Assembly: GCF_038051995.1 (NCBI RefSeq) | Contig: NZ_CP150290.1 | Coordinates: 3,214,001 to 3,278,000 of the forward strand | Direction: 5' to 3' | Length of the DNA: 64,000 nt | Source: Paenibacillus sp. FSL H8-0537 | GTDB taxonomy: Bacteria; Bacillota; Bacilli; Paenibacillales; Paenibacillaceae | Shown here: positions 1-60,782 of the stretch, piece by piece | How positions within the stretch are numbered: position 1 is the first letter of the stretch | Layout of the letters: each line of letters opens with the position of its first letter | Position numbers and translations under genes: made by a program | The notes under the pieces: model-generated | What the model was told of the DNA's origin: nothing | Databases searched by the model: none | What the model saw: only the letters and a program-made list of their open reading frames with translations

Positions 1-842
1 TGGGGGACATGCTGCCTCAGGAAGGAAGTATACCGATTGGTCGGCCGCTTCCTCATGTCAATCTTTACGTGCTAGGTCAGGGTGGAACCTTACAGCCCGT
101 TGGCGTGCACGGGGAGCTGTGCATTGGCGGAGCCAGCGTAGCTCGGGGCTACCTGAACAGGCCGGAACTGACGGCCGAGCGTTTCGTTCCAGATCCATTC
201 GTTGAATATGGGCGCATGTATCGCACAGGGGATCAGGCTTGCTGGCTGCCGGACGGAAATTTGCAGTTTCTCGGGCGCTTGGACGACCAGCTCAGTATTC
301 GGGGCTATAGGGTCGAACCGGGCGAGATTGAAGCGCGTCTGCTAGAAATTGAATCCATCCGCGAGGCGGTTGTTGCTGTCATGCCAGATCGCCAGAGAGA
401 GCTGGTGCTTTGCGCATATTACACAGCAGAAGCAGCGCTGGAAACGGCCGAACTGCGAGCATTTTTGTCTTCGATGCTGCCGGATTATATGGTGCCTGCT
501 GTCTTTAAGAAACTGGAGAAGCTGCCTTTAACAACAAACGGCAAAGTGGATCGCAGAGCTTTGCCTGCACTGGATGAAATAGTTTCCTCCAAATTATACA
601 TACGTCCAGTTACAGATGCGCAGCAGCGGATGGCCGCGTTATGGCAGGAGGTGCTGGGTCAAGAGCGGATTGGGCTGGAAGACAATTTCTTTGATCTTGG
701 AGGCCAATCGCTGAAAGCCATAACGCTGCTGACGCGCATCCATCAGGAATTTCAGATAGAGCTCGGCTTGCGGGACATTTTTCAGGCTGTAACGCTCAAA
801 GATTTAACCGAGGCGGTCAGCTCAGCCACCGAATATATTTAC
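1..842 (+). other. NRPS module 0 (partial A-T)
   Basis: This is the C-terminal half of an A domain (GELCIGG, YRTGD, the RGYR lysine-loop region and [10 protein letters not shown] are visible) followed by a T domain with its phosphopantetheine serine at residue 234. The T core reads LGGQS where its neighbours read LGGHS. The specificity residues of the A domain (GrsA positions 235-331) lie upstream of the window, so the amino acid cannot be predicted. Whether this is the first module of the protein or an inner one cannot be told here. Confidence 0.9.
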
Positions 843-3800
843 GAGTCGCTTATGCCTGCGCCACATCAGCCGTATTACCCGCTGTCATCTGCGCAGAAAC
901 GGCTATTTATGCTGCAGCAATTGGATGCTTCGGGACTTAGCTACAATATGCCAGCTGTCTTGCATTTGGAAGGCCCGCTGGATATGCAGCAGATGGAGGC
1001 AACATTGGGCGTCCTTATCGCTCGGCACGACGCTTTACGCACTTCATTTACAGTTGTAGATGGAGAGCCTGTTCAGCATGTGCATCAGCAGGTTGTCTTC
1101 TCCCTTCTTTATGAGGAAGCAGAGGAAAAAGAGGCATACGAGCAAATTTCGACTTTCATCCAACCGTTTGACCTGGGCATGGCTCCGTTGCTGCGGGCAA
1201 AAATTGTACGTATTGGGGAGCAACGGCATCTGCTCTTGTTTGACATGCATCATATTATCTCGGATGGTATTTCTGTGCAAATTTTGACCGAAGAGCTAGC
1301 TGCAGCTTATGTCGGAGAAACGCTGGAGCCGCTACAGCTGCAATATAAAGACTACGCTGTATGGCAGCAAGCCTACAAGTACACACAAGATTACGCCAAG
1401 CAGGAAGCCTATTGGCTGGATCAGTTTGCCGGAGACGTGCCTGTGCTTCAGCTGCCGACCGACGATCCTCGCCCGGCTGTACGCAGTTTTAAAGGAAACC
1501 GTGTAGACGCCGAGCTTCAGGGCGAGCTTGCAACAGCGGTTCGGGAGCTGGCTCGCAAGAACGGTGCCACCGTATACATGGTGCTGCTAGCTGCATACAG
1601 CGCGCTGTTGTCGCGAATCAGCAGTCAAGAGGAGATCGTTGTAGGAACGCCCGTGGCAGGGCGTCAGCACGCGGATCTGTCAGGCATGTTAGGTATGTTT
1701 GTCAACACCTTGGCGCTTCGCATGTACCCGGAAGGCGACAAAACGTTTGCCGCCTATCTGCGCGAAGTGAAGCAGACGGCATTGTCTGCTTTTGAGCATG
1801 GGAATTACCCGTTTGAGGAATTGGCCCAGCGCATTGTTCAGCAGCGTGATCTAAGTCGCAATCCGCTCTTTGACGCGATGCTCGTTGTGGAGCATGCGGA
1901 TCACGAGGAGTTTAAGCTTGCCAATGTCCATGTTACTCCGCACCCATTGGATTATACGGCAGCTAAGTTTGACTTGACACTCACTGTGACGGAGCGGGAG
2001 GACAGCTTCTCATTGAGATGGGAGTATGACTCCGCTTTGTTTGGACATCGTACGATAACACGCTGGAGCGATTGCTTCTATGAGCTGCTGGTTCAGGCTG
2101 CTGACTCACAGGACGCGAAGCTAGGAACATACGACATTGTAACGGGTCAGGAGAGAGAGCAGCTGTTAGGCCAATTTGCCGGGACTAAGAAAAACTATGG
2201 CCCAGCAACCTCGGTGCTAACCTTATTTGAGCAGCAAGCTATGCAAACTCCAGACCAACCGGCTGTCATTTGGGAAAAGGACGAGCTGAGCTATCGGCAG
2301 CTCAATGAGTGGGCAGAGCAGCTCGGTGCTGAGCTGCGGGGGCAGGGAGTGGGAGCGGACACGATTGTCGCTGTTATGACTCATCGTTCGTTAGAAATGG
2401 CGGTAGGCATACTGGCTGTCTTGAAAGCAGAGGGTGCCTACCTTCCGATCGATCCTGAATTTCCGATCGATCGCATCCGGTATATGCTAGGGGACAGCCG
2501 TCCTCAAGTGCTGCTTACGTTTAGAACGTATGAGCCTCTCGTCGCGGAGCTCCATCAGGACATTTCTGTTTTATATTTTGAGGACCACCCGCTACGGCAG
2601 ATCCCAGTGAAGGCAGTGAAACGCTCGTTCGCTCCAGAACACTTGGCCTACGTCATCTACACATCGGGTACTACAGGGAAGTCTAAGGGCGTTATGATTG
2701 AACACGGCAGCTTGGCGAACACGATACAGTGGAAAAAACGCCATTATTCGTTTAGCCCGCAAGATAGAGCGTTGATGTTGAATCCTTTTATTTTTGATTC
2801 GTTTGTGACTCATTTTTTTTGGCCTATCGTTTCAGGAGCAGCCGTTGTTATTTTGAGTGATGAAGGCAGTAAAGATGCTTCAGCCATTCGCGAAGCGATC
2901 GTGAACCATCAAATTACCCATTTGCAAAGCCCTCCGAGCTTCTACTCTGCCTTGCTGGAAAGCATGATGCATAAGGATTGGCGCTCGGTGCGAAGTGCGG
3001 TAGTAGCCGGCGAGGCGGTTGGCCTGCCTTTAATTCGTCGACTGAAGGCTATGAATCCCGATATGCAGCTGATGAATGAATATGGTCCGACCGAAAATAC
3101 CGTCGTGACGACAGCAGTGGAACTAACGGAAGAGACGGCTGTAACCATTGGGCGCCCCATACCGAATGCGCGGGTTTATATTTTAAATGCACAAGACATG
3201 CTGAATCCGCTCGGTGTACCGGGCGAACTTTGCATTGCCGGAGCCGGCTTGGCCCGGGGGTATATGAATCAACAGGAATTGACGGCATCCAAATTTACGG
3301 CTGATCCTTTCGTACAGGGCGAACGTATGTACCGAACAGGCGATTGGGGCCGGTGGTTGCCGGATGGCACGTTGGAGTATTTGGGACGAATGGATCATCA
3401 AGTGAAAATTCGGGGGAACCGGATTGAACTCGGCGACATTGAGGCGCATCTATTAACGCTTCCAGAAATGAATGAGGTAACCGTCACTGTGATCGAGGAA
3501 TCAGAGGGCAACGCCAGTTTATGCGCTTATTTTGTAGCGGAGCGAGAATACGCAGTGAAGGAGCTAAGACAGCTGCTTGGCTTGGCATTGCCGTCTTATA
3601 TGATGCCGTCTTATTTTGTTCAAATACCGCAAATGCCTTTGACTGCCAATGGCAAATTGGACCGCCGAGCGCTTCCGCTTCCTGACAGCAGCAATTTGAC
3701 CAAAGATGGCAGCTACTTGGCTCCGAGGTCAGAGGCAGAACGAAAGATGATCGAAGTGTGGCAGGAAGTGCTGGGCGTACGTCCGATCGGGGTTCAGGAT

Positions 3801-6800
3801 GATTTTTTTGAACGAGGAGGGCATTCGTTAAAGGCCACGTTTGTTGTTGCTCGCATGCAAAAAGAGCTTCAGGCCGACGTTACGCTGCGGGATCTGTTCC
3901 AATACCCGACCGTTGAGGCGATGACAGAAGTGATCGCATCCAGGTCAATGAAAAGATTTGTTGCTCTAGAGCTAGCGACGCAGATGGACTATTATCCACT
4001 TACGAGCGTGCAAAAAAGGCTATACGTGCTTCAACAAATGGAAGGAGCAGAAGTCAGCTACAACATGCCCGCCGTTCTGCGGATGGAAGGTATGCTGGAC
4101 CCATTACGCTTTGAGTCCTCCTTGCAGCAGCTCATTTTGCGTCATGACGCGTTGCGAACATCCTTTGCATTCATCGACAACGAGCCCGTACAGCAAGTGC
4201 ATGAGCATGTGCAGATAGCCGCAGCCTACCGGGAGGCGGAACAGCAGCAGCTTGATGCCGTAATCGCGGAGTTTGTACGTCCATTCGATCTTGGACAGGC
4301 TCCTTTGCTGCGCGTGGAGGTTGTGCGCGTGGAAGCACAGCTGCACTATGTGCTGCTCGACATGAACCATATGATCTCGGACGGCGTGTCAATGAGCATT
4401 TTTGTAGAAGAATTTACGAAACTGTATGCTGGAGAAAAATTGGAACCGCTGCGGCTGCAATACAAAGATTATGCCGTATGGCAGCAGAAATACGCCAAAA
4501 GTGCCGTGTATCTGGAGCAAGAGGGCTACTGGCTCCAGCATTTGGGCGGAAAACTGCCTGTGCTGCATCTTCCTGCTGATTACACACGTCCGGTTTTGCG
4601 CAGTTTTGCAGGGGACCGAGTCGATTTCAAGCTAGACAATGCGTTGTCGGAGGCGGTACAAAAGCTCGCGCTGGATAAAGGGGCCACCGTGTACATGGTG
4701 CTGCTGGCGGCGTACAGTACGTTCCTGTCGCGGCTGTCCAACCAGGATGAGATCATCATTGGTTCCCCTGTTGCTGGACGTCCGCATGCAGATTTGTCAT
4801 CCATGATGGGGATGTTTGTTAATATGCTGCCTTTGCGTACATTCCCTTCAGGACCAAAGGGTTTTGCCCAATTTTTAGAGGAAATCAAACAAACGACACT
4901 GGATGCTTTAGTGCATGGGGATTATCCTTTGGAGGATTTTGTGAATCAGGTTGTCAGAGAGCGGGATATGAGCCGCAATCCGTTGTTCGATGCCGTATTT
5001 GTGCTGCAAAATACCGATTTGTTGCCCATTGCGCTACCTGACTTGAGCGTAGACTCGTATCCGTTTGCCGAAACATCGGCGAAGTTTGACCTCACGCTTC
5101 AGGTTAATGAGCATCCGGACGGCTACTACTGCTCCCTGGAGTTTTCCACGGCATTGTTTGCTCGTGAAACGATAGAGCGCTGGTGCCGCTATTTTACGGA
5201 CATGCTGCATCATGTAGTCGCTGAGCCGGATACGCGGCTTGCCGAAGCGAGGTTGCTTCGTGAGCAAGAGCAACATGAACAGCTTTTGGCCTACAGCGGG
5301 CTACCTGTGTCGCCTGTGATGCAAGTGTCTATTACAGAGCGTTTTCAAGAAATCGTCCATCATCATCCCGAACGGCTGGCCGTTGTATGCGGCGAGCGGC
5401 AGCTTACGTACGGGGCGTTGCAGTACCAGTCCTTAGCTGTAGCCGGGAAGCTTATTAGAAAGGGGCTGCTGCCTCAAGCGGCTGTGGGCATTTTGGCTGA
5501 GCGCTCCATCGAGTTTGTTGTTGCAGTCATGGGCATTTTGCAGGCGGGCGGCGCTTACGTACCTTTGGACCCGGAGGCTCCGGATGACCGCCACATGTAT
5601 ATATTGAACGATAGTGGCGCGGATTGCTTGATCGTTGTTGGCGATTTGCGCGTGCCGGAACGGTATGAGGGATCGGTAATCAGGCTTGATGCTGATATGC
5701 TTCTGAAGGAAGCTCTGGGGGACAACGGGGAATCGCGCACAATCCGTAAAATTCGCAGCGATGATCCTGCCTATATTATGTACACCTCTGGCACAACAGG
5801 CAGTCCAAAAGGCGTGCTGGTCACACACGGCAATGTCGTCAACCTGGTGACAGGAGGCGGTTATGTGCCGTTTCATAGCGAGCATCGTTATGCGCAGACC
5901 GGCTCGGTCAGCTTTGATGCGGCAACATTTGAAATTTTTGGCGCGCTGCTTCATGGCGGAGCGCTGTACCCGGTAGAAAAAGACGTACTGCTGAGCGCGA
6001 GACGATTAGGACATTTTATTGCAGCAAACGGCATTACGGTCATGTTTTTGACAACATCGCTATTTCACCACTTGGTCAATGAGGAAGCGGGAATGTTTGC
6101 TGGGCTTCAGCATTTGATCATGGGTGGAGAAATATTGCTGCCGAAGCCTGTTCACGCTGTTCAGAAGGCTAGCCCGTCCATCACGATATGGAACGGATAC
6201 GGGCCGACGGAGAACACTACGTTTTCGACTGCCTTCCCTCTCAGTGAGACGACCGGGATGACGAGCATTCCGATAGGACGGTCGATTGGCGGAACGACAG
6301 CCTACGTGCTTGGCGCTGGCAGTCAGATGCTTCCCGTTGGCGTACCGGGAGAGCTGCACCTCGGAGGTGCCGGTGTAGCCAAAGGCTACTGGAACCAGCC
6401 TGAGCTTACGAAGGAAAAATTCAAGCCTGATCCGTTTATTGAAGGTAAAACCATGTATGCAACAGGGGATTTGGCTCGCTGGCTGCCTGATGGCAATCTC
6501 GAATATATGGGACGAATCGATCAGCAGGTCAAAATTCGGGGATACCGGATTGAACTGAGCGAAATTGAAGCGCGTCTGCTGCTGCACGCCGATATTCGTC
6601 AAGCTTCAGTCATCATTCGGAAAGATACACCTGGAAACGAATTGCTTTGCGCTTATTATGTTAGCGACGGTGTGTTAGATCCTTCAAAATTGAGATATCA
6701 GCTGAGCACAGCTCTGCCTTTGTATATGGTTCCTGAGTATTACATCCACCTTACGGAACTGCCGCTTACGAGAAATGGGAAGCTGGATCGAGCGGCATTG

Positions 6801-9800
6801 CCTGCGCCTGCATACGATACAGCGGCAACTGCGCCATATGTTGCCCCTCGTACAACGACGGAAGCTCAACTAGCGGCAATTTGGGAGGACGTATTGCAGA
6901 CTTCGCAAGTGGGAGCACGAGATAACTTTTTTGCACGGGGAGGGCACTCGCTAAGCGCGATGACGCTGGCATCGCGCATCCATCAAGTGATGAATGTGCG
7001 AGTGGAGATTCGTGACATCTTCCGTTTTTCGACCCTTGAAGCGCTGGCGCTCAGTGTAGAGGAGCGAGCGAAAGACCTATTTGAGGGTTTGCAGCCTTCG
7101 GCTCCGCGTGACTACTATCCGCTGTCTTCCGCGCAAAAGCGGATGTACGTGCTGCACCAGCTTGAAGGTGCGGAAATGAGCTATAACATGCCTGCGGCTC
7201 TGCTATTCAATGGACGGGTGGAGTTTGCCCGATTGGAACGCGCTTTTAAGGAGCTTATCGCCCGCCACGAAGTGCTGCGGACCAGTTTTGATATGCTTGA
7301 TGGCGAGCCCGTTCAAAAAATTACCTCAGAGGTTGATTTCAATTTGGCTTACGGGGAAGCCGGAGACAGACCAATTGAAGAAATGATTCGGGCGTTCATG
7401 CGTCCTTTCGATTTGGGCCTGGCTCCGCTGCTGCGCATTCAATTGACGAAGCTGACCGATACGCAGCATCTGCTGCTGTTTGATATGCATCACATCATCT
7501 CTGACGGGACTTCAATAAGCCTTTTCATCGAGGAGATGACAAGGCTGTACGCTGGCAAGCGTTTAGAGCCACTATCCCTTCATTACAAGGATTACGCGGT
7601 ATGGCATGCATTTAACAAACACTCGGAAACGTATGTCAAGCAAAAAGAATATTGGGTACAGCAGCTTGGCGGCGAGGTCCCGATTCTTCATTTGCCGTCG
7701 GATTTCCCCCGTCCAGCTATAAAAAGCTTTGCGGGAAGTCGGCTGGATTTTGTTATAGATGCAAAATTGAGCACGCAAGTAAAACAACTGGCACAAGACA
7801 CAGGGACTACTTTATTTATGGTATTGCTTGCTGCTTACAACGTGTTCCTAGCGAAAATTTCAGGTCAAGATGACATTATTGTGGGCACGCCGATTGCCGG
7901 TCGTCCTCATGTTGACCTGTCCGATATGATGGGGATGTTTGTGAACACGTTAGCCATTAGATCAATGCCGTCTGTAGACAAAACATTCAGGGACTACTTG
8001 GAGGAAATCAAGCAAGTTTCTTTGGGAGCGTTTGAACATGCGGACTACCCGTTTGAGGAAATTGTCGATCAAGTCGTTCAACACCGGGATGTGAGCCGGA
8101 ATCCGGTCTTTGATGCGATGTTCGCTCTGCAAAATATGAAACGATCTGTTCTGCATATGTCAGATGTCGAGATCCTTCCTGTCCCAATGGAAAACCCGAC
8201 GGCAAAATTCGATTTGTCTTTGTTTGTCAACGAGTCCGCAGATGAGTTGCATGGCAGCATGGAGTATGCGACATCGCTGTTTGAGGCGGGTACCATTGAA
8301 CGTTGGAAAGATCATTTTATCGCACTGCTTCGGCATACCGTGGCTGCGCCGGACGTCATGCTCGGCAAGGCGAACTTGCTTAATGAACAAGATTTGATGA
8401 CTCTGCATCGGTGGATGGACGGGCCTGTGAAGAAGCTCGAAGACACAAATGTGCATCAGTTATTTCAAAAGCAGGCGGAGAAAACACCGGAAGCGGCTGC
8501 GCTCGTATTTGGCGACACCATGCTTACTTACGGGGAACTTGACCGTTTATCGGATCAAATGGCTGCTGCTCTGCGACAAGAGCAGATCGGCGGCGGAAGC
8601 ATTGTAGGGCTAATGGCTCTACGCTCTCCCAAAATGATTATCGGTTTGCTTGGCATTTTGAAAACGGGAGCGGCCTTCCTTCCGATTGATCCTTCCTACC
8701 CTGAGGAACGAATTTCGTTCATACTGGAAGATTCTAAAGTCTCTTGCCTGCTGGTGGATTCGGATTCCGCCCAAACGCATGATTGCCTTGTCCGTCGCAG
8801 CAAAACGAGAATCATCGAACAGCTTCTTGCTACAATAAGCTCCAGCGATACAAGTGAGGTTTCACATGAGCAGCTTCAGAGTCCGGCAGCGACCGAAAGC
8901 AGCCGATTGCTCTACGTCATCTATACGTCGGGTACGACAGGCAATCCGAAAGGTGTCATGCTTGAACACGGTAACCTCATCAACTTGATTATGCATCAAT
9001 ATGAGCATACTTACATTCCGTTTGACAAGGATGTGTTGCAGTATGCTTCGTATAGCTTTGATGTGAGCTATCAAGAAATTTTCTCGACTTTGCTTGCCGG
9101 AGGAACGCTGCACTTGATCGAGGAGGAGATGCGCCAAAATGCAACTGCGCTTTTCCGTTATGTGGAGGATCGCGGCATTCAGACCTTGCTCCTGCCTTCG
9201 TCGTTTGTCAAATTCGTCTGGAACGATCCTACTTATGAATCGGTATGGCCGAAGTGCGTGAAGCATTTGATTACAGCGGGAGAGGCGCTAATTGTTGGTC
9301 ATACACTACAGCAATTTTTGCGAGAGCAAGGCGTAACGCTGCACAATCATTACGGTCCTTCCGAGACGCATGTGGCTACGACGTATACGATAATGCCGAA
9401 AGAGCCGATGGCTGCGCTACCTCCGATTGGTAGACCGATTAGCAATTCGTCTGTTTATATTGTCGATTCTCTGGGACAGCTGCAACCGATCAACGTAGCT
9501 GGCGAGCTGTATATTGGGGGAGCTTGTGTCGGCAGAGGTTACCTGCATCAGCCGGATTTGACAAGTGAGAAGTTCCTTTCCAATCCATGGTCACCCGGAA
9601 CCCGGATGTATCGAACTGGGGATAAGGCCCGCTGGTTGGCCGACGGAAACATTGAGTATTTAGGCCGTATCGATCATCAGGTTAAAATTAGAGGATACCG
9701 AATCGAACCGGGCGAGATCGAAACCAAGCTGCTGGAGTTGGACGGGATTCGAGAGGCTGCTGTAATTGCGCTGCAAGATGAACGCGGCAGCAATGAGCTG

Positions 9801-27800: not shown

Positions 27801-30800
27801 GAGCTGCAAGGCAGCATTTCGCTAGCGAGCGGCCCGCTCATGAGGCTGGGCTTGTTCCAATGCGGCGATGGGGATCATTTGCTCCTCGTCATTCATCACT
27901 GGGTCGTGGACGGGGTATCTTGGCGAATTCTGTTTGAAGATTTTGCCACTGCATACGAGCAAGCGGTACAAGGGAAAGACATCCGGCTGCCGCAGAAAAC
28001 GGACGCATTCCAGACGTGGGCGCAGCAATGGAGCGCTTATGCAGGAAGTCCGGCGATGGAGGCGCAGCGTGCGTACTGGAAACGGATCGTAGAGCTGGCG
28101 GCGATTCCGCCGCTGCCTAAGGATTACGACTCAGAAGCCTCAACGCTGGCATTTAGCCAAACGCTGGCCGTGGAGTGGTCGCAAGTCCAGACGCAGCAAC
28201 TGCTGAAAGAAGCGCACCGAGCCTACGGAACGGAGATTAATGACTTGCTGCTGACCGCGCTGGCGATGGCGGTTCAGTCGTGGAGCGGTATGGAGCGTGT
28301 GGGGATCATGCTGGAAGGACATGGAAGAGAAACGATCCTCCCGGATGTGGATGTCAGCCGGACAGTCGGCTGGTTCACGAGCGCGTACCCGGTAGTGCTG
28401 GAGATGAAGCCAGAGATGACCTTGTCGCAGCAGATCAAGCGAGTGAAGGAAACGCTGCGAGCGATCCCAGACAAAGGGGTCGGCTACGGCCTCCTGCGGT
28501 ATGGGTCCGAACAGGTGGAAGGAGAGGACTGGTCGTGTGACCCAGACATTTCCTTCAATTACTTGGGCCAGTTTGATCAGGATTTGGAGCGCAGTGCGCT
28601 TCAGCTGTCCCCACTATCCTCGGGAGAGGCGATCAGTAGTAGAAGGCAACGAGCCGCGGTGCTGGAATGCAACGGGATGATCGCGGGGGGAACGCTGCGC
28701 CTGACCATGAGCTACAGCGCGGCGGAGTACCGTCCAGCGACGATGGAGCAGTTCGCGGAGCGGTTGAAGCAGAGCTTGGAGGCGGTGATCGCGCATTGTG
28801 TGGCTCAGGAGCGGACGGAACTGACGCCAAGCGATGTGGGGCTGCCGGACATGACGCAGGAAGAGCTGGATGCGTTGGTGCAGCGAAGCGCAGTCATCGG
28901 GGAGATGGAGGAGGTGTATGCGCTGACGCCGATGCAGCAGGGCATGTTGTTCCACAGCCGCCTGGAGCCGCAAGCGGGCGCTTATGTGAACCAGATGCAG
29001 CTGACGCTGCAAGGGGAGTTGGATGTGGCCGCGTTTGAACGAAGCTGGCAAACGATCGTTCAGCGGCATGCGGTGCTGCGGACGAGCATCGATAGCGGGT
29101 GGAGAAAAGAGCCGCTGCAAGTTGTGTACCGCCACCGGCCGTTTCAGCTCGCGTATGCCGATCTGTCGCTGAAACCCGCCACGGAGCAGGAAGCTGGCGT
29201 GGCGCAGTGGCGGACGGCGGACCGGCGGCAAGGCTTTGCTGTGGAAGCGGAGAGCCTGATGCGGGTGGCGTTGTTCCGCACAGGGGAGCATACGCATGAG
29301 CTGGTTTGGAGCTTCCATCATATTGTGATGGACGGCTGGTGCTTGCCGCTGGTGATGGAGGAAGTGCTGCGCACCTACAGCACCTACAGCATCTCGGGTA
29401 GCGAAGAGGCGCAGCAGGAGCAGGAGCAGCCAAAAGGTCAGGCGTACAGCGAGTATATTCGCTGGCTGTCGGAGCAGGACGAGGCGTCGGCGCGGCGCTA
29501 CTGGAAGGAACGACTGGCGGGCTGCGAAGCACAGGCGGTGTTCCCGAAACGGCAGCGCCAGACGTCAGGCTATGAAGCGAGGCGTGTGAGCGGAGTCGTG
29601 CCACGGGAGCAAAGCGAGCGAATCGCGGCGGCGGCCAAAGCGCATGGCGTAACGATGAATACACTGCTGCAAACAGCATGGGGATTGTTATTGCACCGCT
29701 ACAGCGGCAGCCGGGATGTGGTGTTTGGCGGGGTGGTATCGGGTCGACCTGCCGACCTGCCGGGCGTGGAAAGCATGATCGGACTGTTCATCAACACGCT
29801 GCCCGTCCGGGTCGTGTGCGAGGGTCAGGAGACGGCGGCGGATGTGCTGCGGCGGATGCAGGCGGACGCGCTGGCTGCACAAGCCTATGGCTACTATCCG
29901 CTACATGAGATCCAGGCGCATGGCACTGGAACGAGAGAGCTGTTTGACCATATTCTAGTGTTCGAGAATTATCCGATGCCGACGAGCTCGGAAGCCTCCC
30001 TGGATGCGAGCGGACTGGTGATTACTGACGTGCAGGCGGACGAACAAACGAATTATGACCTGAATGTGATGATTCAGCCTGGAGAAGAGCTAGTCGTGCA
30101 TTTCGACTATAACGGACAGGTGTACGAACAAGGGGCTATGGAGCGGGTGCAAGGTCACTGGCTGCAACTGGTGGAACAAATCGTGAGCCAGCCGAACGTG
30201 CCGGTCACGCAGTTGGAACTGCTGACGGCAGGTCAGCGAGAGCAACTGCTGGTGCACTTTAACGCTACGGAGCTGGAGCTCCCTGAGAACGCGACGGTGC
30301 ACGGGCTATTCGAGCAGCAGGCTGCACGAACGCCGGGTCATCCAGCGCTGGTGAGTGGACTGGCCGTGTGGACGTACGACGAGCTGGACGGGCAAGCCAA
30401 CCGCATCGCGGGCTGGCTGCGCGCGCATGGCGTGAGCAGCGAAGACCGGGTCGGTGTGCTGCTGTCCCGTTCGCCTTGGCTGATCGCGGGTCTGCTGGGG
30501 ATTATGAAAGCCGGTGCGGCCTATGTGCCACTGGATCCGGCGCTGCCAGCTGGCCGCATCGAAGGGATGGTTCGGGATGCCGGAATTGGCATTCTCTTAA
30601 GTGAAGAAGCCCAGCGGGAAACGGTGGCGGGCTGGGTAGGAACCCCGCTGCGTCAGGTGCTGTGTCTGGAGGAGCAGGGCTCTGATGGACAGCAGAAGGC
30701 TTCAGATGGACAGCAGGAGGAGCATGCCTCAGATAGACAGCAGAAGGAGCAGGCTTCGCAGGTGAGGTTCAGCTCTGTGGAGGAACTGAAAGCTTATTCC

Positions 30801-33800
30801 TCAGCATCAACGGAGGTGGAGACCCGCGCTGAAGGCAGCGCGTATGTCATCTACACGTCGGGGACGACCGGCACGCCGAAAGGCGTGGTGGTGGAGCATC
30901 GGAACGTGGTCAACTTTATGACGGGGATGGTGGAAGCTCTGCCCTTTGCGCGATCTGCGACCATGCTCAGTGTGACGACGGTGTCCTTCGACATCTTCGT
31001 GACGGAGAGCTGGGTACCGCTGAGCTGCGGCATGCAGGTGCTGCTGGCGAGCGAAGCGGAGCAGCAGGACCCCGCGCAGCTGGCTGCGCTGCTCACGAAG
31101 CATCCGGCCCAGGTGATGCAGACGACACCTTCCCGTCTGGTGATGCTGCTGGAGGATGCGCGCAGTGCAGCTGCGCTGCGTCCTCTGCAGGCGCTGCTGA
31201 TTGGCGGGGAGCCCTTCCCAGCCACGCTGGAAAGCCAATTGCGCAGTCAAACGGAGGCGGAGCTGTACAATATGTACGGGCCGACGGAAACGACGGTCTG
31301 GTCGACGTTTGAACACCTGAGAAAAGTGGGCGAAGGAGGAAAAATGAGCATCGGCCGTCCACTGGCCAATACACAGGTGTATGTGCTGAACGAGGCGCTG
31401 CAGGTGCAGCCGATCGGAGCGGTGGGAGAGCTATGCATCGGAGGAGCCGGGGTAGCCCGAGGCTACTGGGCCCGCGAGGAACTGACGAATGAGCGGTTTG
31501 TCGGGCATCCGTTTGTGCCCGGGGAGCGGATGTACCGGACCGGCGATTTAGCCAGGTGGCTGCCGGATGGTCGACTGGAGCATATGGGCCGGATGGACCA
31601 TCAGGTGAAGATACGGGGTTACCGGATCGAGCTGGGTGAAGTGGAAGCGCATCTGCTGCAAATCGAAGGGGTAAAAGAAGCGGTGGTGACGGTGATCGCT
31701 GGAGAAAGAGAGACGGACGCAGCGGAGTTATGCGCGTATGTGACCGTGACAGGCAGCAGCGAGCTGGGAGCGAAGGAGATGCGAAGCAAGCTGGCCGAGG
31801 GACTTCCCTCGTATATGCTCCCAACGCACATCATATCTCTGCCTGAGATGCCGCTAACACCTAACGGGAAGCTGGATCGCAAGGCGCTGCCGAAGCCGGA
31901 AGTCGGGGGGCAGAGCGAAGTGGCGTATGTCGCGCCACGGACACCAGTCGAAGCGGAAGTCGCGCGGCTGTGGGAGGAAGTACTAGGACTAGAGCGCGTC
32001 GGCATTCGCGACAACTTCTTTGCGCTTGGCGGTCATTCGCTCCGGGCGATGACGCTGGTATCGCGTATGCATCAGGCCTTGGAGACGGAGGTGCCGTTAA
32101 GAGAGGTGTTTCTCTATCCGACCGTTGAAGAACTGGCAGCGGTGATTAGCGTACGGGAACAGAAGGCGTATGCGGCCATTCCCCGAGTGGAAGCCAGAGA
32201 CTACTATCCGCTGTCCTCGGCGCAAAAACGGATGTACATTTTACAGCAGCTTGAAGAAGCGGGGAAAAGCTACAATATGCCGGGGATGCTGCTGCTGGAA
32301 GGCGAGCTGAACCGAGCGCATTTTGAAGCAGCGTTCGGGCTTCTGATTGCCCGTCACGAAACGCTGCGTACCGCTTTTGAGCTGGTACAGGGCGAACCGA
32401 TGCAGCGGGTAAAGGAAGCCGTTGACTTTGAGGTTGCCTATGTAGGAGTGGCAAGCAAGGAGGAGGTCGAAGCCCGTGTGCGCGATTTCGTGCAGCCGTT
32501 TGACCTCAGCGAGGCGCCGCTGCTGCGGGTCGAATTAATCGAATGGGCGGAAGAGCGCTATGTGCTGCTGCTGGATATGCATCACATCATTTCCGATGGC
32601 GCGTCGATGGATATTTTGGTGGAGGAATTCGCCCGTCTCTATCGGGAGGAGAAGCTGCCTGAGCTGCGGATTCAGTACAAGGATTATGCGGTTTGGCAGC
32701 AGTCTGAGGCCAATAAAGAACAAATGAAGGAGCATGAAGCCTACTGGCTGAAAGCCTTGGCTGGAGAATTGCCTGTGCTGGAGCTGCCGACGGACGCAGC
32801 ACGTCCTGCGGTGAGACAGTCTGCTGGAGCCGTGTTTGACTTCGAGCTCGATTCGCATCAGAGGGATGCGTTGCACGAGCTTGCTGCTCAGCATGGATCG
32901 ACGCTGTATATGGTACTGCTCGCGGCGTATACGATTTTGCTGCATAAATACTCCGGGCAAGAAGACATTATTGTCGGTACGCCTGTTGCGGGCAGAACGC
33001 ACATCGACTTGCAAGAGCAGATTGGTATGTTCGTGGGCACGTTGGCCATCCGTAGCTATCCAGCGGGTGAGAAATCGTTATCGGCTTACTTAAATGAGGT
33101 CAAGGAAACGATGCTTAACGCCTATGAGCACCAGCAATATCCGTTTGAAGAACTGCTTGAGAATGTGCAAGTTAATCGTGATTTAAGCCGTAATGCAGTG
33201 TTTGACACGATGTTTGTCCTGCAAAATACGGAAAGCAGGCAGTTTGAACTGGATGGGCTCCAAATGAAGCCGTATGCCAGCGCACAAAGGACAGCGAAAT
33301 TTGACTTGACCTTGCAGGCAGTAGAGGGTGAGGATGGGGTTGCTTTCAGCTTGGAGTACGCAACTTCATTGTATAAGCCGGAAACTATACAGCGGATTGC
33401 GGGGCACTTTGTCCAGTTGATTGATGAGATGATCGCCCGCCCTCAGGCAAGCCTTGCGATGCTGCAAATGGTGACGAATGAGGAACGAACGCGGCTGATA
33501 GACGTGTTCAACGATACAAAGGCAGCGTATCCGCGAGAGCTGGCCATTCATCAGCTGTTTGAGGACCAAGTGGAACGAAGGCCGAATGCAACAGCCATTT
33601 TATTTGGAGAGTCGCAGTGGTCTTACGGCGAGCTAAACGATAAGGCCAATCGGTTGGCACGGACGCTGCAGAAGGCTGGACTTGAAGCGGAACAACTGGT
33701 AGCCATTGTGGCAGAGCGTTCTTTTGAGATGATTGTCGGCATATTGGCGATTCTTAAAGCTGGAGGGGCCTACGTGCCTATTGATCCGGAGTATCCGGAG

Positions 33801-36800
33801 GAGCGCATTCGCTACATGATGCAGGATGCAAATGTGCGAATTGTACTGATCCAGAGCCATTTACAAAGACCTGTGTTTACTGATGCGATGGTTGTGCTGC
33901 TTGATGCTGAGCAGGCTTATGATAAGGATGGTTCAAATCTGGCATCGGCCACAGAATCAACTCAGATGGCGTACGTCAACTATACTTCCGGCTCGACAGG
34001 GACTCCCAAAGGAGTGTGCGTCACGCATCGCGGGGTTGTTCGACTTGTGACACATGCGAGTTATGTGGATATTTGCGAAAATGACGTTTTCTTGCAGGGA
34101 TCAACTATTTCATTCGATGCCGCGACGTTTGAGATTTGGGGCAGCTTGCTGAATGGAGCGGTATTGGCGCTTCTGCCTCCTGTCACTTTGTCGCTTGAAG
34201 ATTGGTCGCAAGCGATCCGAAAGCATCAAGTTACGATTGTATGGTTCACGTCAGGATGGTTCACGGTTATGGTAGAACACAAGCTTGAAGGATTGGCAGG
34301 AATCAGACAATTGCTCGTCGGAGGCGATGTGGTATCCAGAGCGCATGTGAAGAAAGCGATGGAACGTTATCCGCACTTGCGTTTGATTAATGGGTACGGT
34401 CCGACGGAAAACACGACATTTACAAGTTGCCATACAATCCGTTTGGAAGATATGGATCGTGCCTTGATTCCAATTGGCCGTCCTATCGGAAATACGCAAG
34501 TATATGTGCTCGATCCATTAGGCATGCTGCTGCCGCTGGGCGCAATTGGAGAGTTGTATGCGGCTGGAGACGGTGTGGCACGCGGTTATTTGAATCAACC
34601 GGAATTGACGGCGGAGAGATTTGTTGATAATCCTTTTGTACCAGGGCAAAAAATGTATCGGACTGGTGATCTTGCACGTTGGTTGCCAGACGGTACGCTC
34701 GAATACGTAGGGCGTATGGACAGTCAGGTGAAAATTCGCGGGTACCGGATCGAGCTTGGGGAGATAGAAGCACAGCTTGGCCGAATGGCTTCGGTGCGCG
34801 AAGCGGTTGTGGTCGCAAAGGCCGATAGCAGCGCAGTACAGCAGCTTTGTGCGTATGTTGTAGCCAATCGGGAGCTGGCTGCTGGAGAACTAAGAAGGGA
34901 CTTAGCCGAGCAATTGCCGGGGTACATGATTCCAACGTACTTTGTGCAACTCGAACGCATGCCGCTAACGCCAAATGGCAAAATCGACCGCAAGGCGCTG
35001 CCAGCGCCTGAAGGAATCATTCCTGCTGCGGTCGAATATGCAGCGCCGCGCACGCACATCGAAGCGCATCTTTCCCGTATTTGGCAAGAAGTTCTCGGTC
35101 TTGAACGGGTAGGCGTGTACGACAACTTCTTTGAGATTGGCGGTCACTCTTTGCGGGCAACGGCAATGGTGAGCCGTCTGCATAAAGAAATGCAAATTAA
35201 CGTGCCGCTGAGACACATTTTCAGGTTCCCGACCATCGAGCTGCTTGCTCAAGCAATTGCAGACATGGAACAGCAAGCGTTCCAGACTATCCAACCTATC
35301 GAAGAAAAAGAGTATTATGCCGTCTCCTCAGCTCAGAAGAGGCTGTATATATTGCATCAGCTTGAAGGGACGGGGCTGAGCTACAATTTGCCGAGAGCAA
35401 TGCTGCTGGAAGGAACGCTGGACCGAAAGCTGTTCGAAGCCGCACTGCACAAGCTAATTGCAAGGCACGAGACGCTGCGAACGAGCTTCCATATGGAGGA
35501 AGGTGAATCGGTGCAGCGCGTGCACAATGAAGTGCGCTTTGCTGTGGAATATATCCAGGCAAGTGAAGAGGAAACAGCAGAAGTCATGCGGCGATTCGTT
35601 CGCACCTTTGATCTGGAGCAGCCGCCGCTCTTGCGCGCCGGACTCATCGAGCTTGCATCTGAGCGCCATCTGTTCGTACTCGATATGCACCATATTATCT
35701 CCGATGGTATTTCGATGGGCATTTTGGTAGAAGAGTTTGCACGCATGTATGCCGGGGAAGAACTGCCCCCATTACGCAATCAATACAAGGACTATGCGGC
35801 ATGGGAGCAGTCTCAGGAGCAGAAGAAGCGTCAGCTTCAGGAGGAAGGGTACTGGCTGGATGTGTTTAGCGGGGATATACCGGTTCTGGAAATGCCAACG
35901 GATTATGTGCGGCCTGCAGTGCAAAGCTTCCAGGGTGAAGAGTTGTCATTTATGCTTGGCGCTGAGCAGAGTGAACGTTTGCGGCGCATAGCGGCCGAAA
36001 GCGGATCTACGCTGTATATGATATTGCTGGCGATATACAAAACCTTACTGCATAAATATTCGGGGCAGGAAGATATTGTAGTCGGTACGCCAATTGCGGG
36101 CAGAACACATGGCGACTTCCAGTCGCTGGTGGGCATGTTTGTAGGCACATTGGCAATCCGCAGCTATCCGGCGCGCGAGAAAACCTTTATATCATACCTG
36201 GAAGAACTCAAGGAAGCGATGCTAGGCGCTTACGAGCATCAAGGCTACCCATTTGAGGAACTGGTGGAGAAGGTGCAAGTCAGCAGGGATATGAGCCGCA
36301 ACCCGATTTTTGATACGATGTTTGTTTTGCAAAATATGGAACAAAGAGATTTGCAAATGCAGGGCTTGCAGATTCAGCCATATGCAAATGAGCATACCGC
36401 GGCGAAGTTTGATTTAACCTTCCAGTTAGAGGAAATGGAAAATGGTATCTCGTGCAGCATCGAATATGCTTCTGGTTTATTCAAGCGAGAGTCGGTGCTC
36501 CGGATGGCGAAGCAATTCGAGAAGCTAGTTGAATCCGTTACGGCTAATCCGTATGCAAGGCTAGCGTCGTTAGAGATCCTAACAGCGGAGGAGCACACAC
36601 AGCTTGCAGCATTCAATGCGACAGCATCGGAATACCCAAGCGAAAAAACGGTCTACCATTTGTTCGAGCAGCAGGCGGAAAAAACACCTGAAGCGGTAGC
36701 CGTCGTTCATGATGAAGAGCAAGTGACGTATGGCGAGCTAAACGCCCGTTCCAATTGCTTGGCAAGGACGCTGCGAGCATCCGGCGTGCGACCGGATCAT

Positions 36801-39092
36801 TTGATTGGCATACTGGCGGATCGATCCGTGGAAATGATTATAGGCATACTGGCCGTGCTAAAAGCTGGTGGGGCTTACGTGCCAATAGATCCGGAGTATC
36901 CTGAAGAGCGCATCCGTTACATGCTGGAGGACGCTGGCTCGGAGGTGCTGCTAGTTCAGCAGCATTTGCTGAATCGCGTACATTTTGAAGGAAAGCTTAT
37001 CAATCTGAATGATCCGGAGGTCTTTAGCGAAGAAGAGTCGAATATAGAGCCGATATCTGGCGCGCACGATCTTGCTTATGTGATCTATACGTCGGGAACG
37101 ACGGGAAATCCGAAGGGCGCGATGATTACCCACCAAGGCCTGACGAATTACTTGTGGTGGGCACAAGAGGTATATGTCGCTGGGGAAAAGCTTGATTTTC
37201 CGCTGTACTCATCTATTTCCTTCGACCTGACGGTAACATCCATATTTACGCCGCTGCTAACAGGCAACCTTATTCGCATCTACAGTGGAGAAGACAAAGC
37301 GCTAATAATCGAGCGGATCGTAACAGATAACCAAGTCAACATTATCAAACTGACACCGGCCCATTTAAGTATAATCAAAGAAATGAATATAAGGGCCGGC
37401 TCAAACATCCGTAAGCTAATTGTCGGAGGTGACAATCTTGGCGCGGATATAGCGAGAAGCATCCATGACAAGTTTGGCGGAGATATCACGATATTCAATG
37501 AATATGGACCGACAGAAACCGTTGTCGGCTGCATGATTTATCGATACGATCCGGAAACGGATACGAGCGGTTCCGTTCCTATTGGGGTACCGGCTGCGAA
37601 TGTCAGCATTTATTTGCTTGATGCTGAGCGTAAGCAAGTGCCGATTGGAGTACCGGGAGAAATATACATCGTTGGAGATGGAGTTGCGCGAGGGTACTTC
37701 CGTCGTCCGGACTTGACCGCGGAGAAGTTCGTTGACCACCCATTCATTCCTGGGAAGCGGATGTACCGTACAGGGGACTTGGCCAAAATGCTGTCAAACG
37801 GAAACTTGGAATATTTAGGCCGCGCAGATGACCAAGTGAAAATACGCGGCTACCGTATTGAGCTCGGCGAAGTAGAGGCGCAACTGATGAAAGTAGAGGC
37901 GGTGAAGGAAGCCGCGGCCATCGCTCGCGAAAACGACGCGAAAGAGAAGCAGCTATATGCCTATTACGTAGCGGATAGCGAGCTTACGGCCGGGGAACTG
38001 CGGAGAGCATTATTGCAGAAGCTCCCAGCCTATATGATTCCAAACCGCTTCGTGCAACTGGATAAATTGCCGCTTACAGCTAATGGAAAAATCGATCGCA
38101 GACGTTTATCTCTTTTGCAGCAAAATGAGCCGCTTCAAGCCAATTACACTGCGCCAAGGAATCCGCTGGAACAAGCGCTTGCTGACATCTGGCAGGAGGT
38201 TCTGGGCATAGAACGGGTTGGCATTCACGATAATTTCTTCGATGCAGGCGGACATTCTTTGAAGCTGATTCATATGATCGGAGAAGCTCGCAGCAGGCTG
38301 GATTTGGAAATATCGTTTAGCACCGCCTTCACTTACCCGACGGTCATGGAGCTTGTCGAGCAGTTGGAAAGTCGAAACCACTTTGATGATTCTACAGTGC
38401 AGCAAGGTACAGGGGTATCTGTATGGAACAGCAGCAATGGAAACGGCTTAACTTTGCATTGCTTCCCGCCAATCGTAGGCTATGGGCAAGTGTTCACGAT
38501 GATGGCGCAATCGTTGCAGGATACGGCAACTATATATGCCTATGATTTCATCGTTTGCGACGATACATCGGAATATTTTGCACAACATGTTCAAAAATTG
38601 CAGCCTCAGGGTCCCATTTATTTGCTGGGCTACTCTGCTGGAGGTAACCTTGCATTTGAAGTAGCTAAGCGACTGGAGGAACAGGGTCGTAAAGTAGCGT
38701 CTATCCTTATGTTTGACGCCTATCCGAGAGAAACGTCTTCATCTAATATGCAGCAAGAAGCGTATCTGGAGACGCTAAAAGAAGAGATTTCGATGTTCAT
38801 TCGCCATGTTCCCGGGGAGACGGCAGAAAAAGTTAAACAAAACATCCTAGCTTACACAGCATGGATTGATGGGATGCAAACAAATGGAGAAGTTCAGGCT
38901 GAAATTCATCTAATCCAATCAGCAGATCCAATAGGAGAAGAGGAATGGAGAAGGAAATCCTGGAGCGCTTTAACAACGGGGCAACTGCACATTTATTTAG
39001 GAAACGGCAAACATGAGCAGATGCTAGAAAGAGATTATGCTTCAACCAACGCCTTACTTATAAAATCTATACTTGAAAATTTCACTGTTTAA
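1..39092 (+). CDS. Giant multimodular non-ribosomal peptide synthetase, 5' partial
   Basis: The frame is open from the first full codon (base 3) to TAA at 39090-39092. The first residues already lie in the C-terminal half of an A domain, so the true start is upstream; the ATG at base 9 is internal. The visible 13,027 residues give A(partial)-T, then modules 1-5 as C-A-T, module 6 as C-A-T-E, module 7 as C-A-T, module 8 as C-A-T-E, modules 9-11 as C-A-T, then TE. Each A domain shows the YTSG[TS]TG, YG[PI][TS]E, TGD and NGK motifs; each T domain shows the phosphopantetheine serine in a GG[HDQ]S motif. C domains after E domains (modules 7 and 9) start with the [14 protein letters not shown] signature of D-L condensing domains; all others carry the L-L type PLSSAQKR signature. 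The protein should assemble a peptide of at least 12 residues in the cytoplasm and release it through the TE. No frameshift was seen. Confidence 0.97.
843..3953 (+). other. NRPS module 1 (C-A-T), Tyr-like code
   Basis: The C domain starts near residue 289 and has HHIISDG at 414-420 (L-L type). The A domain starts near residue 736, with YTSGTTG from 884. Aligned by hand to GrsA, the pocket residues read D-S-T-Q-V-A-E-V-V. This most resembles the published Tyr code D-G-T-I-T-A-E-V (recalled, not searched), so an aromatic residue is a weak guess. The T serine is at residue 1273. No E domain follows, so an L residue is expected. Confidence 0.8.
3954..7076 (+). other. NRPS module 2 (C-A-T), predicted Val
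   Basis: The C domain starts near residue 1328. Its active-site motif reads NHMISDG (N1453, H1454): the first His of HHxxxDG is Asn while the second, catalytic His is kept. The A domain starts near residue 1775, with YTSGTTG from 1925. Its pocket reads D-A-F-F-I-G-G-T-F, one change from the Val code D-A-F-W-I-G-G-T-F; Ile is the main alternative. The T serine is at residue 2314. Confidence 0.85.
7077..10227 (+). other. NRPS module 3 (C-A-T), predicted Pro
   Basis: The C domain starts near residue 2369, with HHIISDG at 2494. The A domain starts near residue 2815, with YTSGTTG from 2972. The pocket reads D-V-Q-L-I-A-H-V-A, matching the Pro code D-V-Q-L-I-A-H-V in all eight core positions. The specificity core motif is YGPSE rather than YGPTE. 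The T serine is at residue 3364. Confidence 0.88.
10228..13458 (+). other. NRPS module 4 (C-A-T), Gly-like code, first copy
   Basis: The C domain (near residue 3420; HH at 3544) is nearly identical to those of modules 6 and 8. The A domain (near residue 3866; YTSGTTG from 4050) is nearly identical to those of modules 7 and 9. Its pocket reads D-I-T-Q-L-G-M-V-W, closest to the Gly code D-I-L-Q-L-G-L-I-W; this is a moderate prediction. A Gln/Glu/Lys-rich insert begins at residue 3994, before the YTSGTTG motif. The T serine is at residue 4445. Confidence 0.85.
10260..11570 (+). repeat. Condensation domain repeated three times (C4, C6, C8)
   Basis: The C domain of module 4 recurs almost unchanged in module 6 (about 16632-17942) and module 8 (about 24423-25733), at offsets of 6372 and then 7791 bases. 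All three share the start PLSSAQKR and the end [12 protein letters not shown]. The upstream linkers differ in module 6, so the copies were joined to different carrier domains. Confidence 0.92.
11527..14286 (+). repeat. Third copy of the A-T unit plus N-terminal C domain (module 4-5)
   Basis: This block matches 30220-32982 (module 9 A-T and the front of the module 10 C domain) with an offset of 18693-18696 bases, the difference being one codon in the Gln-rich insert. Its A-T part also matches module 7. Similarity drops sharply near 14286, inside the C domain just after the motif VGTP, while the equivalent sequence in module 10 takes a different course. Confidence 0.9.
13459..16587 (+). other. 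NRPS module 5 (C-A-T), predicted Thr
   Basis: The C domain starts near residue 4500, with HH at 4626; its N-terminal two thirds match the C domain of module 10. The A domain starts near residue 4948, with YTSGTTG from 5093. The pocket reads D-F-W-N-I-G-M-V-H, an exact match to the Thr code. The core motif is YGITE instead of YGPTE, a common variant in Thr domains. The T serine is at residue 5487. Confidence 0.9.
16588..21108 (+). other. NRPS module 6 (C-A-T-E), predicted D-Leu
   Basis: The C domain starts near residue 5544 (HH at 5668). The A domain starts near residue 5992, with YTSGSTG from 6138 and the first pocket residue D at 6184. The pocket reads D-A-W-F-L-G-N-V-L, matching the Leu code D-A-W-F-L-G-N-V. 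The T domain has LGGDS (Ser 6514), the form usually found before an E domain. The E domain runs from about residue 6565 with HHWVVDG at 6695. Its linker after KDYDS is nine residues longer than in module 8. Confidence 0.9.
18957..24362 (+). repeat. Large direct repeat, copy 1 (A6 tail-T-E-C-A-T)
   Basis: This block recurs at 26760-32138. The offset is 7803 bases up to a 27-base length difference in the E-domain linker (near 20335-20390) and 7776 afterwards. By eye there are scattered single-base changes from 18957 to 21366 and none from 21367 to 24217. It covers the last part of the module 6 A domain, its T and E domains, and nearly all of module 7. Confidence 0.95.
21109..24372 (+). other. 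NRPS module 7 (D-L type C, A, T), Gly-like code, second copy
   Basis: The C domain starts near residue 7045 with the D-L signature and HHIVMDG at 7178, which fits a D-Leu donor from module 6. The A domain starts near residue 7505 (YTSGTTG from 7690) and has the same pocket as module 4, D-I-T-Q-L-G-M-V-W. The T serine is at residue 8085. Most of this module looks identical at DNA level to module 9. The T-C linker that follows resembles the linker between modules 3 and 4, not the one after module 9. Confidence 0.88.
24373..28884 (+). other. NRPS module 8 (C-A-T-E), Tyr-like code, epimerized
   Basis: The C domain starts near residue 8141 (HH at 8265). The A domain starts near residue 8589, with YTSGTTG from 8730 and pocket D at 8775. 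The pocket reads D-A-S-Q-V-G-E-V-V, closest in my recollection to a Tyr code of iturin type (D-A-L-S-V-G-E-V-V); this is a weak prediction. T is LGGDS with Ser 9115. E starts near residue 9166 with HHWVVDG at 9296. Everything except the A-domain core closely matches module 6. Confidence 0.87.
26760..32138 (+). repeat. Large direct repeat, copy 2 (A8 tail-T-E-C-A-T)
   Basis: This is the second copy of the 18957-24362 block, covering the last part of the module 8 A domain, its T and E domains, and module 9. The stretch 29143-31993 shows no difference from copy 1 by eye. The copies end at the T-domain end, where the linkers diverge: copy 1 continues like module 3 to 4, copy 2 like module 4 to 5. 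Confidence 0.95.
28885..32148 (+). other. NRPS module 9 (D-L type C, A, T), Gly-like code, third copy
   Basis: The C domain starts near residue 9637 with HHIVMDG at 9770, as expected after the E domain of module 8. The A domain starts near residue 10097 (YTSGTTG from 10282) with pocket D-I-T-Q-L-G-M-V-W. The T serine is at residue 10677. It is a near-perfect copy of module 7 up to the end of the T domain, after which the sequence continues like module 4 into module 5. Confidence 0.88.
32149..35262 (+). other. NRPS module 10 (C-A-T), predicted Val
   Basis: The C domain starts near residue 10732 with HH at 10858. It matches the C domain of module 5 up to about base 32982, then diverges. The A domain starts near residue 11180; its A3 core reads NYTSGSTG (Tyr at 11325), with Asn where the other modules have Ile or Met. 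The pocket reads D-A-F-W-L-G-G-T-F, one change from the Val code. The T serine is at residue 11714. Confidence 0.88.
35263..38388 (+). other. NRPS module 11 (C-A-T), predicted Asn
   Basis: The C domain starts near residue 11769 (HHIISDG at 11894). The A domain starts near residue 12215, with YTSGTTG from 12360 and pocket D at 12406. The pocket reads D-L-T-K-I-G-E-V-G, one conservative change from the Asn code D-L-T-K-L-G-E-V-G. The T serine is at residue 12750. As the last module before the TE, Asn should be the C-terminal residue. Confidence 0.9.
38389..39089 (+). other. Terminal thioesterase domain of the NRPS
   Basis: This is a type I TE of surfactin-synthetase kind, about 220 residues. 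The nucleophile motif is GYSAGG with Ser at residue 12876, the likely acid is Asp 12903 in FDAYP, and the likely base is His 13002 in GNGKHEQ. It would release the full-length peptide by hydrolysis or cyclization; the sequence does not say which. Confidence 0.92.
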
Positions 39093-39208: not shown

Positions 39209-39228
39209 AAGCCTGAGTAATCAGGCTT
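39209..39228. other. Perfect short hairpin
   Basis: AAGCCTGA, a 4-base loop and TCAGGCTT form a perfect 8-bp stem. There is no U-run after it on the plus strand. It overlaps the 3' end of the transposase remnant and could be the terminator of the lost insertion sequence on the minus strand. Confidence 0.5.
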
Positions 39229-39440
39229 TCAGATTGACGGGAAACCCTATGTCTTGTCTCAAGACGTTCGGGTTTCTCTTTGTTTTGGGGATCAGCCCCC
39301 GCAACCGATAATAGCGAAACCCATGGAGCTGTTTAGCATCCGCGAAGCTTCGCTCAATCACCCAGAAAGATCATTTTGAAAAGAACAAGTGGATCAATGG
39401 CTGGACGGCCATTATCTTGTGAATACGTGCAAAAGTTGTC
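39221..39440 (-). pseudogene. Remnant of an IS1182-family-like transposase
   Basis: On the minus strand, 39430 down to 39365 encodes QDNGRPAIDPLVLFKMIFL, the typical N-terminal motif of IS1182-type transposases (GRPSIDPVVL). From 39364 downward, in another frame, it encodes ERSFADAKQLHGFRYYRLRG, the typical C-terminal motif. The several hundred residues between them, with the catalytic centre, are missing, so an internal deletion fused the two ends and shifted the frame. The family call comes from remembered motifs and was not searched. No clear terminal inverted repeats or target duplication were found. It marks a past insertion right at the 3' border of the NRPS gene. Confidence 0.7.
39241..39286 (+). 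terminator. Terminator-like nested hairpin
   Basis: The outer arms GAAACCC (39241-39247) and GGGTTTC (39270-39276) enclose a second perfect stem GTCTTG/CAAGAC. A T-rich tail follows (TCTTTGTTTT). It lies within the frame of the transposase remnant, so it may be a later insertion or a chance structure. Confidence 0.45.
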
Positions 39441-50279: not shown

Positions 50280-50498
50280 CCTCCGTAAGCTTTAGGCCTG
50301 ATTTTTGGCTGAGGGGTGAAGGAAGGAGGTACGTTATATTTTGCCGAATGTTATAGCAGGAGCTCATGCCAGATATTGGCGTGCGGGGGAAGGAAGCAGC
50401 AAAGCAAATATCTATAGGCTGGGATGTGATTATGGACACTAGTGACCGATATAAGAAGTAAGGGTTTAATTTTATTTTTGAAAAAAAGAGGTGAGGGC
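50280..50498. other. Leader region before pxpB
   Basis: This 220-base gap has a full-consensus Shine-Dalgarno AAGGAGGT at 50323-50330 with only a 34-codon TTG frame after it (50341 on), which I do not trust as a gene. No clear promoter or riboswitch was seen. Confidence 0.4.
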
Positions 50499-52279: not shown

Positions 52280-52283
52280 ACGA

Positions 52284-53270: not shown

Positions 53271-53843
<573 letters not shown>

Positions 53844-59107: not shown

Positions 59108-59141
59108 ACAAACTAAAACGAATTTCAGGAGGCTGTGCGAT

Positions 59142-60704: not shown

Positions 60705-60714
60705 CAGCAGCCAT

Positions 60715-60750
60715 AAAGGAGGGGATAGCACTTTATTCCCTTCCTTTTGC
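60715..60750 (+). terminator. Partial terminator between binding protein and permeases
   Basis: AAAGGAGGGGA and TCCCTTCCTTT pair with one G-T, followed by a short, interrupted T-run. Such a structure would let the binding protein be made in excess over the membrane parts. Confidence 0.5.
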
Positions 60751-60782
60751 TTTAATTCATTCCTTAGGAGAGGGGCCGTTCA

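Follow-up and report, generated by a model that had tools for sequence, protein, structure and literature searches.

The paenidepsins were named and described in March 2026 (PMC13036774). According to that work, P. apiarius MW-14 makes several acyl congeners, and paenidepsin A, with MIC values of >64 µg/mL against the bacteria and fungi tested, causes hyphal swelling of Aspergillus fumigatus from 2 µg/mL and has an effect with micafungin. A related product, compound 7 of Paenibacillus sp. P3_m182_1, has the formula C72H113N17O16 (observed at 1472.8608). Pro4, Thr6, Leu7 and Asn12 set it apart from the MW-14 compounds, and its synthetase has E domains in modules 7 and 9; the structure of compound 7 was proposed from MS/MS rather than NMR, position 7 is ambiguous between Leu and Ile, and its activity was deferred to future work (PMC13036774). 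The auxiliary genes pdnC and pdnE occur together in about 50% of complete clusters and are thus not universal (PMC13036774).

Here we analyze a stretch of 64,000 nucleotides (the window) of Paenibacillus sp. FSL H8-0537, corresponding to positions 3214001-3278000 of a 7.0-Mb single-contig genome (G000:C1). Coordinates refer to the window unless given as genome positions. We estimate at about 95% the probability that its large NRPS gene is a paenidepsin synthetase (pdnD type) making a 12-residue lactone, with compound 7 or an acyl homologue as the main product.

A single gene for a complete synthetase

Frame 3 of the forward strand is open from base 3 to a stop at 39092, encoding 13,029 residues in the window. 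Examination of 80 kb of upstream sequence placed the start of the gene 2,350 bases 5' of the window. The NRPS is encoded by one gene (genome 3211651-3253092) with a protein of 13,813 aa, of which residues 1-784 are encoded ahead of window base 3 and residues 785-13813 in the paenidepsin-type part at 1-39092 (+). The frame opens at genome 3211615 with TTG, but the ATG at 3211651, preceded by the purine-rich AAGGAAAGAAGGG, is more likely to be the start. The preliminary description of an uninterrupted frame of >13,000 residues, carrying 12 modules and running past the window, is borne out by the open frame and by the 12 adenylation (A) cores found, and the upstream sequence supplied the gene start and the C-starter domain, completing the 12-module NRPS. 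A second NRPS gene upstream was considered and rejected, as the C-starter shares the frame and lies at most 2.35 kb before the window.

Each of the 12 A cores scored >300 bits with a profile built from the A cores of the gene itself, a count that excludes two partial profile matches of -3.4 and 3.2 bits. The remaining domains are the C-starter (motif HHIIADG), 11 further C domains, 12 carrier serine motifs, one E domain each in modules 7 and 9 (HHWVVDG; residues 7481 and 10082) and a terminal thioesterase (TE) at 38451-39035 (+; PF00975, E 5.1e-26), whose serine motif at 38628, GYSAG, is a thioesterase motif. Pfam searches of two stretches, around E7-C8-A8 and at the C terminus, agree with this layout. 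In module 3, the C-domain motif NHMISDG (4365-4385, +) has its first His changed and retains the second, which we take to be the catalytic one of the HHxxxDG motif. Among four sequences compared, the motif is NHMISDG here, NHLISDG in the sister genome G034 and HHIISDG in both P. apiarius MW-14 and P. alvei DSM 29. The possibility that this C domain is dead was rejected, given the intact second His and a first-His change common to G034.

The C domain of module 8, which follows an E domain and carries the motif HHIVMDG (21540-21560, +), is of the D-donor type by its motif and by comparison, its best matches being C domains of Bacitracin synthase 3, Tyrocidine synthase 2 and surfactin synthetase. 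The ordinary C domain of module 9, taken as the contrast, best matched Tyrocidine synthetase 3, followed by Txo2, Txo1, an 'amino acid adenylation domain protein' and Linear gramicidin synthase A. We assume the former three to take D donors, and TycC and gramicidin A to take L donors. The matches of C8 and C9 differ as expected, with one C domain of each type compared and C10 judged by motif alone; this is in line with the earlier claim that the C-domain types agree with the E domains and that the D/L pattern is well supported. By the motifs and the C8 comparison, the synthetase shows the pdn trait of 12-module members in which modules 7 and 9 carry E domains and the C domain after each accepts a D residue.

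Adenylation codes and the predicted product

Code columns were numbered after what we take to be the PheA code positions. Modules 4, 6, 7, 11 and 12 were called from codes that we regard as canonical for Pro, Thr, Leu, Val and Asn. For modules 1, 2, 3, 5, 8, 9 and 10, we relied on the matching modules of MW-14, whose product was solved by NMR and MS/MS (PMC13036774). All A cores lie on the forward strand. Module 1 (Orn) enters the window with the C-terminal part of its core (1-293; T1 serine motif at 699), its code DVGEIGSID being read upstream. It is followed by module 2 at 2661-3407 (DSTQVAEVV, His, as in the MW-14 His module), module 3 at 5784-6533 (DAFFIGGTF, Val), module 4 at 8925-9686 (DVQLIAHVA, Pro; DAQWIAHVA in the MW-14 OHPro module), module 5 at 12159-12914 (DITQLGMVW, Gly) and module 6 at 15288-16052 (DFWNIGMVH, Thr). 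Module 7 at 18423-19139 (DAWFLGNVL) is read as Leu, converted to D by the E domain with its motif at 20091-20111, and module 8 at 23079-23834 (DITQLGMVW) as Gly. The last four are module 9 at 26199-26942 (DASQVGEVV, Trp; DATQVGEVV in the MW-14 Trp module; E-domain motif at 27894-27914), module 10 at 30855-31610 (DITQLGMVW, Gly), module 11 at 33984-34733 (DAFWLGGTF, Val) and module 12 at 37089-37841 (DLTKIGEVG, Asn). The predicted order is Orn-His-Val-Pro-Gly-Thr-D-Leu-Gly-D-Trp-Gly-Val-Asn.

The 12 modules align one to one with those of MW-14, at 46-70% protein identity per module. The nine-letter codes are identical in modules 1, 2, 3, 5 and 8, one letter off in modules 9 and 10, and two letters off in module 11. 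Modules 11 and 12 have the lowest identity (46%), so the calls of Val11 and Asn12 lean on the code alone. The codes also preserve the conserved pdn ends, Orn-His-Val-Pro/OHPro at the start and Val-Asp/Asn at the end, within the range of 8-12 modules. Amino-acid calls depart from MW-14 at positions 4, 6, 7 and 12, which are exactly the four that distinguish compound 7. Most residues of the order proposed in the preliminary description stand; the MW-14 comparison favors His and Trp for its "Tyr-like" modules 2 and 9, and module 1, partly in the window and called unknown because its code residues lie upstream, is corrected to Orn.

In the proposed route, the C-starter would load a 3-hydroxy fatty acid onto ornithine, and the eleven later modules would add His, Val, Pro, Gly, Thr, Leu (turned to D), Gly, Trp (turned to D), Gly, Val and Asn. 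The terminal TE is expected to close the lactone, freeing a macrolactone in which the 3-hydroxyl of the fatty acid is joined to Asn12. Hydroxy-Trp would be absent from the product, as the genome gave no match to a pdnC (PrnB-like) gene. If produced with a C15 3-hydroxy acyl chain, this macrolactone would have the computed formula C72H113N17O16 ([M+H]+ 1472.8624), which is identical to the formula of compound 7. The same mass arithmetic returns 1662.9002 for paenidepsin A, reported as 1662.9003 in the experimental section and as 1662.8930 in the results section (PMC13036774). Any hyphal-swelling activity of the predicted peptide would be borrowed from paenidepsin A.

The gene had been put forward as encoding a peptide order matched by no known Paenibacillus product. 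In the comparison with known clusters, compound 7 and the pdn cluster of P3_m182_1 match it at the level of predicted order and formula (PMC13036774), and a new order is rejected because compound 7 has the same proposed order. In our view it is hardly credible that the gene makes a new peptide with no relation to known Paenibacillus products and with Tyr-like residues in positions 2 and 9. A Tyr-like reading comes naturally for the module 2 code, as antiSMASH also gives Tyr where the MW-14 product carries His (PMC13036774), but that code is identical to the MW-14 His code, the module 9 code is one letter from the MW-14 Trp codes, and the formula with His and Trp equals that of compound 7; Tyr was rejected at both positions. 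Within the paenidepsin reading, the main product could be a new congener, with an acyl chain of C14, C16 or C17, with Ile or Val as residue 7, or with hydroxy-Pro, as might be expected from the several acyl congeners of MW-14 (PMC13036774) and from a C-starter just 67% identical to that of MW-14. We find this possible but rather unlikely, since the module 4 code is closer to what we assume to be the usual Pro code than the MW-14 OHPro module is, and since the sequence predicts acyl length neither way. The gene encodes a complete, very large NRPS, a new member of a described family with a described product. Its predicted product is not new, and the candidate 'unknown product' is removed from the list, since it agrees with a known lipopeptide even in molecular formula.

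Relatives and the distribution of pdnC

The C-starter shares 67% identity with that of the giant NRPS of MW-14 (a 13,741-codon frame) and 75% with that of P. alvei DSM 29, with all other matches at <=31% among those listed (MW-14, DSM 29 and the own genome), which would place it in the pdn clade. Elsewhere in the own genome, on the minus strand (genome 5656295-5684944), lies another large NRPS locus. Its frames have 7,032 and 2,582 residues, and one domain shows 30% identity to the pdn C-starter. At E <= 1e-120, this C-starter was found in 2 of the 51 genomes searched in the genus and, with at most four candidates scored for each genome, in 8 of the 394 searched in the family; both counts include the own genome. 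NRPS genes were read in all seven other genomes, in G348 up to the contig end only.

The sister genome G034 has a gene of 13,903 residues in which all 12 codes are the same in every letter and identity per module is 91.4-94.5%. When the last 2.6 kb of the gene were compared as DNA with 60 relatives, the own genome and G034 gave the full-length matches listed, and other genomes gave partial ones. Among the remaining members, G342 and G350 have 12 modules, G348 has 8 up to the contig end and G340 has 10 in three frames; in all four, module 6 is of the MW-14 type, and so is the last module where seen. The G340 locus (C1:843907-878882) has a 396-aa opposite-strand ORF between its first two frames and looks interrupted.

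A PrnB-like pdnC lies directly upstream of the NRPS in 5 of the 8 genomes, all of which have a Trp-type module 7 code, and pdnC had no match in the present genome, G034 and DSM 29, the three without that code. This distribution only suggests that PdnC may modify Trp7, as the five carriers come from one genus and are hardly independent, and G348 was seen to the contig end only.

A 42-kb island with empty sites in relatives

Upstream, the gene has as neighbors genes for an MFS protein and an EamA transporter, together with a 194-aa ORF that matches no Pfam family; downstream lies a DUF72 gene. Among the neighbors scanned, namely six of the eight ORFs in 9 kb upstream and 20 downstream, none corresponded to pdnA (AraC), pdnB (ABC exporter), pdnC (PrnB) or pdnE (chitosanase), and family searches of the 20 downstream ORFs gave no obvious tailoring gene. 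The downstream region includes two GNAT-type ORFs (41840-42625, below the Pfam cut-off, and 53325-53843). Two further gene groups look like ordinary metabolism: CT_C_D, CT_A_B and LamB_YcsF genes in a row at 50442-53069, presumably a 5-oxoprolinase set, and an oligopeptide-type ABC transporter at 58974-63999.

Empty sites occur in 2 of 51 genomes, G063 (C18:111217-113991) and G015 (C1:6033112-6035248), where 0.9 and 0.3 kb separate the EamA and DUF72 genes and the interval contains no NRPS; the proteins encoded by these two genes are 94-97% identical to those of the present genome. G015 also lacks the 194-aa ORF. Alignment with G063 defines the extra DNA as genome 3211092-3253428, 42.3 kb that hold one large gene. 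The G+C content of this island is 54.4%, compared with 48.8% and 49.6% in its two 20-kb flanks. At the right edge of the island (39225-39426), a DDE-transposase insertion sequence is represented by three pieces. Fuller copies are found near genome positions 4742617, 4901950 and 6986606 (three by position; the two read are 99.8% alike over 1,569 bases), and a single fragment was found in G034. Flank sites uniting the present genome with G034 number 47, against 14 and 4 for the other pairings, and therefore one gain or one loss would suffice to account for the island.

Homogenization of modules 7-8 and 9-10

The block from the end of A7 through T7, E7, C8, A8 and T8 (18936-24364, +) is 98.7% identical over 5,430 aligned bases to its partner in modules 9-10 (26739-32140, +). 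Both blocks begin about 34 residues past code position 331 of A7 or A9 and end just past carrier domain 8 or 10. Sites were counted on aligned units running from A7 to A9 and from A9 to A11, those at which the copies agree within a genome and differ between genomes being termed concerted. Between the present genome and G034, columns 600-6000 hold 369 concerted, 9 position-specific and 2 crossed sites, in contrast to the A7/A9 specificity core (columns 0-600; 0, 157 and 0) and to the columns from 6000 on (9, 592 and 1). In columns 600-6000, the corresponding counts are 1,330, 1 and 2 for the window and MW-14, 286, 32 and 13 for MW-14 and G350, and 157, 65 and 27 for MW-14 and G342, the weakest case. 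In trees of the Gly modules, copies 5, 8 and 10 of the window group together (96/96), as do those of G034 (100/98) and copies 8 and 10 of G350 (100/99), while the MW-14 and G342 copies are not resolved. Trees of the T-E-C segments group the module 7/9 pairs of G034 and G350 (both 100/100) and of the window (90/91), and not those of MW-14 and G342.

The Leu (A7) and Trp (A9) cores are each shared by the present genome and G034, at 93% and 95% identity; the pair therefore predates their split, and the blocks would have been homogenized since, most simply by gene conversion within each genome. Near-identity, which reaches 100% in stretches of 300 bases, could also stem from an artefact of the assembly or from a tandem duplication that is very recent, and the much weaker concerted signal of MW-14 and G342 (157 vs 65), with several trees leaving the copies unpaired, leans the same way. 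We nevertheless judge it improbable, as the block follows the genome (369 vs 9) despite A cores shared with G034, and as MW-14 and G350 behave alike (286 vs 32).

Concerted evolution of NRPS and PKS domains has already been described, with functional divergence as protection (PMC4256081), and is known to obscure duplication events (PMC9205934). The homogenized modules are hence a further example and no new principle. For the paenidepsins, duplication followed by recombination has been proposed (PMC13036774); the terms 'gene conversion' and 'concerted' are absent from the main text of that article, and the available part of it contains neither a 42-kb island with an empty site nor homogenization of modules 7-8 and 9-10. 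Whether the synthetase moves as a single-gene island, in which conversion keeps the T-E-C-A-T blocks alike and A-core swaps escape it and change position 7, is to us an evenly balanced matter. If so, module identity would be uninformative on the date of duplication, contrary to the duplicate-then-recombine order.

The remaining interest of the locus is evolutionary: two related genomes have the same predicted product and have kept their specificity cores, and about 5.4 kb of duplicated module sequence have been rewritten separately. From such homogenized blocks one can see at which points natural recombination fuses parts of an NRPS and leaves the product unchanged, the practical question in NRPS engineering. 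The island and the blocks are modest additions to a known family.

Comparison with known paenidepsin systems

The same family includes KB425796-A to K of Paenibacillus sp. 530603 (cited here through PMC13036774), antifungal lipopeptide macrolactones of 12 residues that have Pro4. The pdn-like locus of P. alvei DSM 29 shares the first four codes and the Asn code of the last module with the present gene, and differs in having eight modules in two genes and no Trp-type code. The MW-14 cluster has in common with it a single giant 12-module gene, the domain order and residues 1, 2, 3, 5, 8, 9, 10 and 11, but it has OHPro4, Cit6, OHTrp7 and Asp12. Its NRPS is flanked by pdnA, pdnB, pdnC and pdnE, none of which was found beside the gene here; we located the AraC, ABC transporter and PrnB genes upstream of it and a GH46-type gene downstream, in agreement with PMC13036774. 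The cluster of P3_m182_1, known from its published description (PMC13036774), splits the NRPS into two genes (7+5 modules), unlike the single gene for 13,813 residues found here, and it shares with our locus 12 modules, E domains in modules 7 and 9, Pro4, Thr6, Leu7, Trp9, Asn12 and, for compound 7, the formula with a C15 acyl chain.
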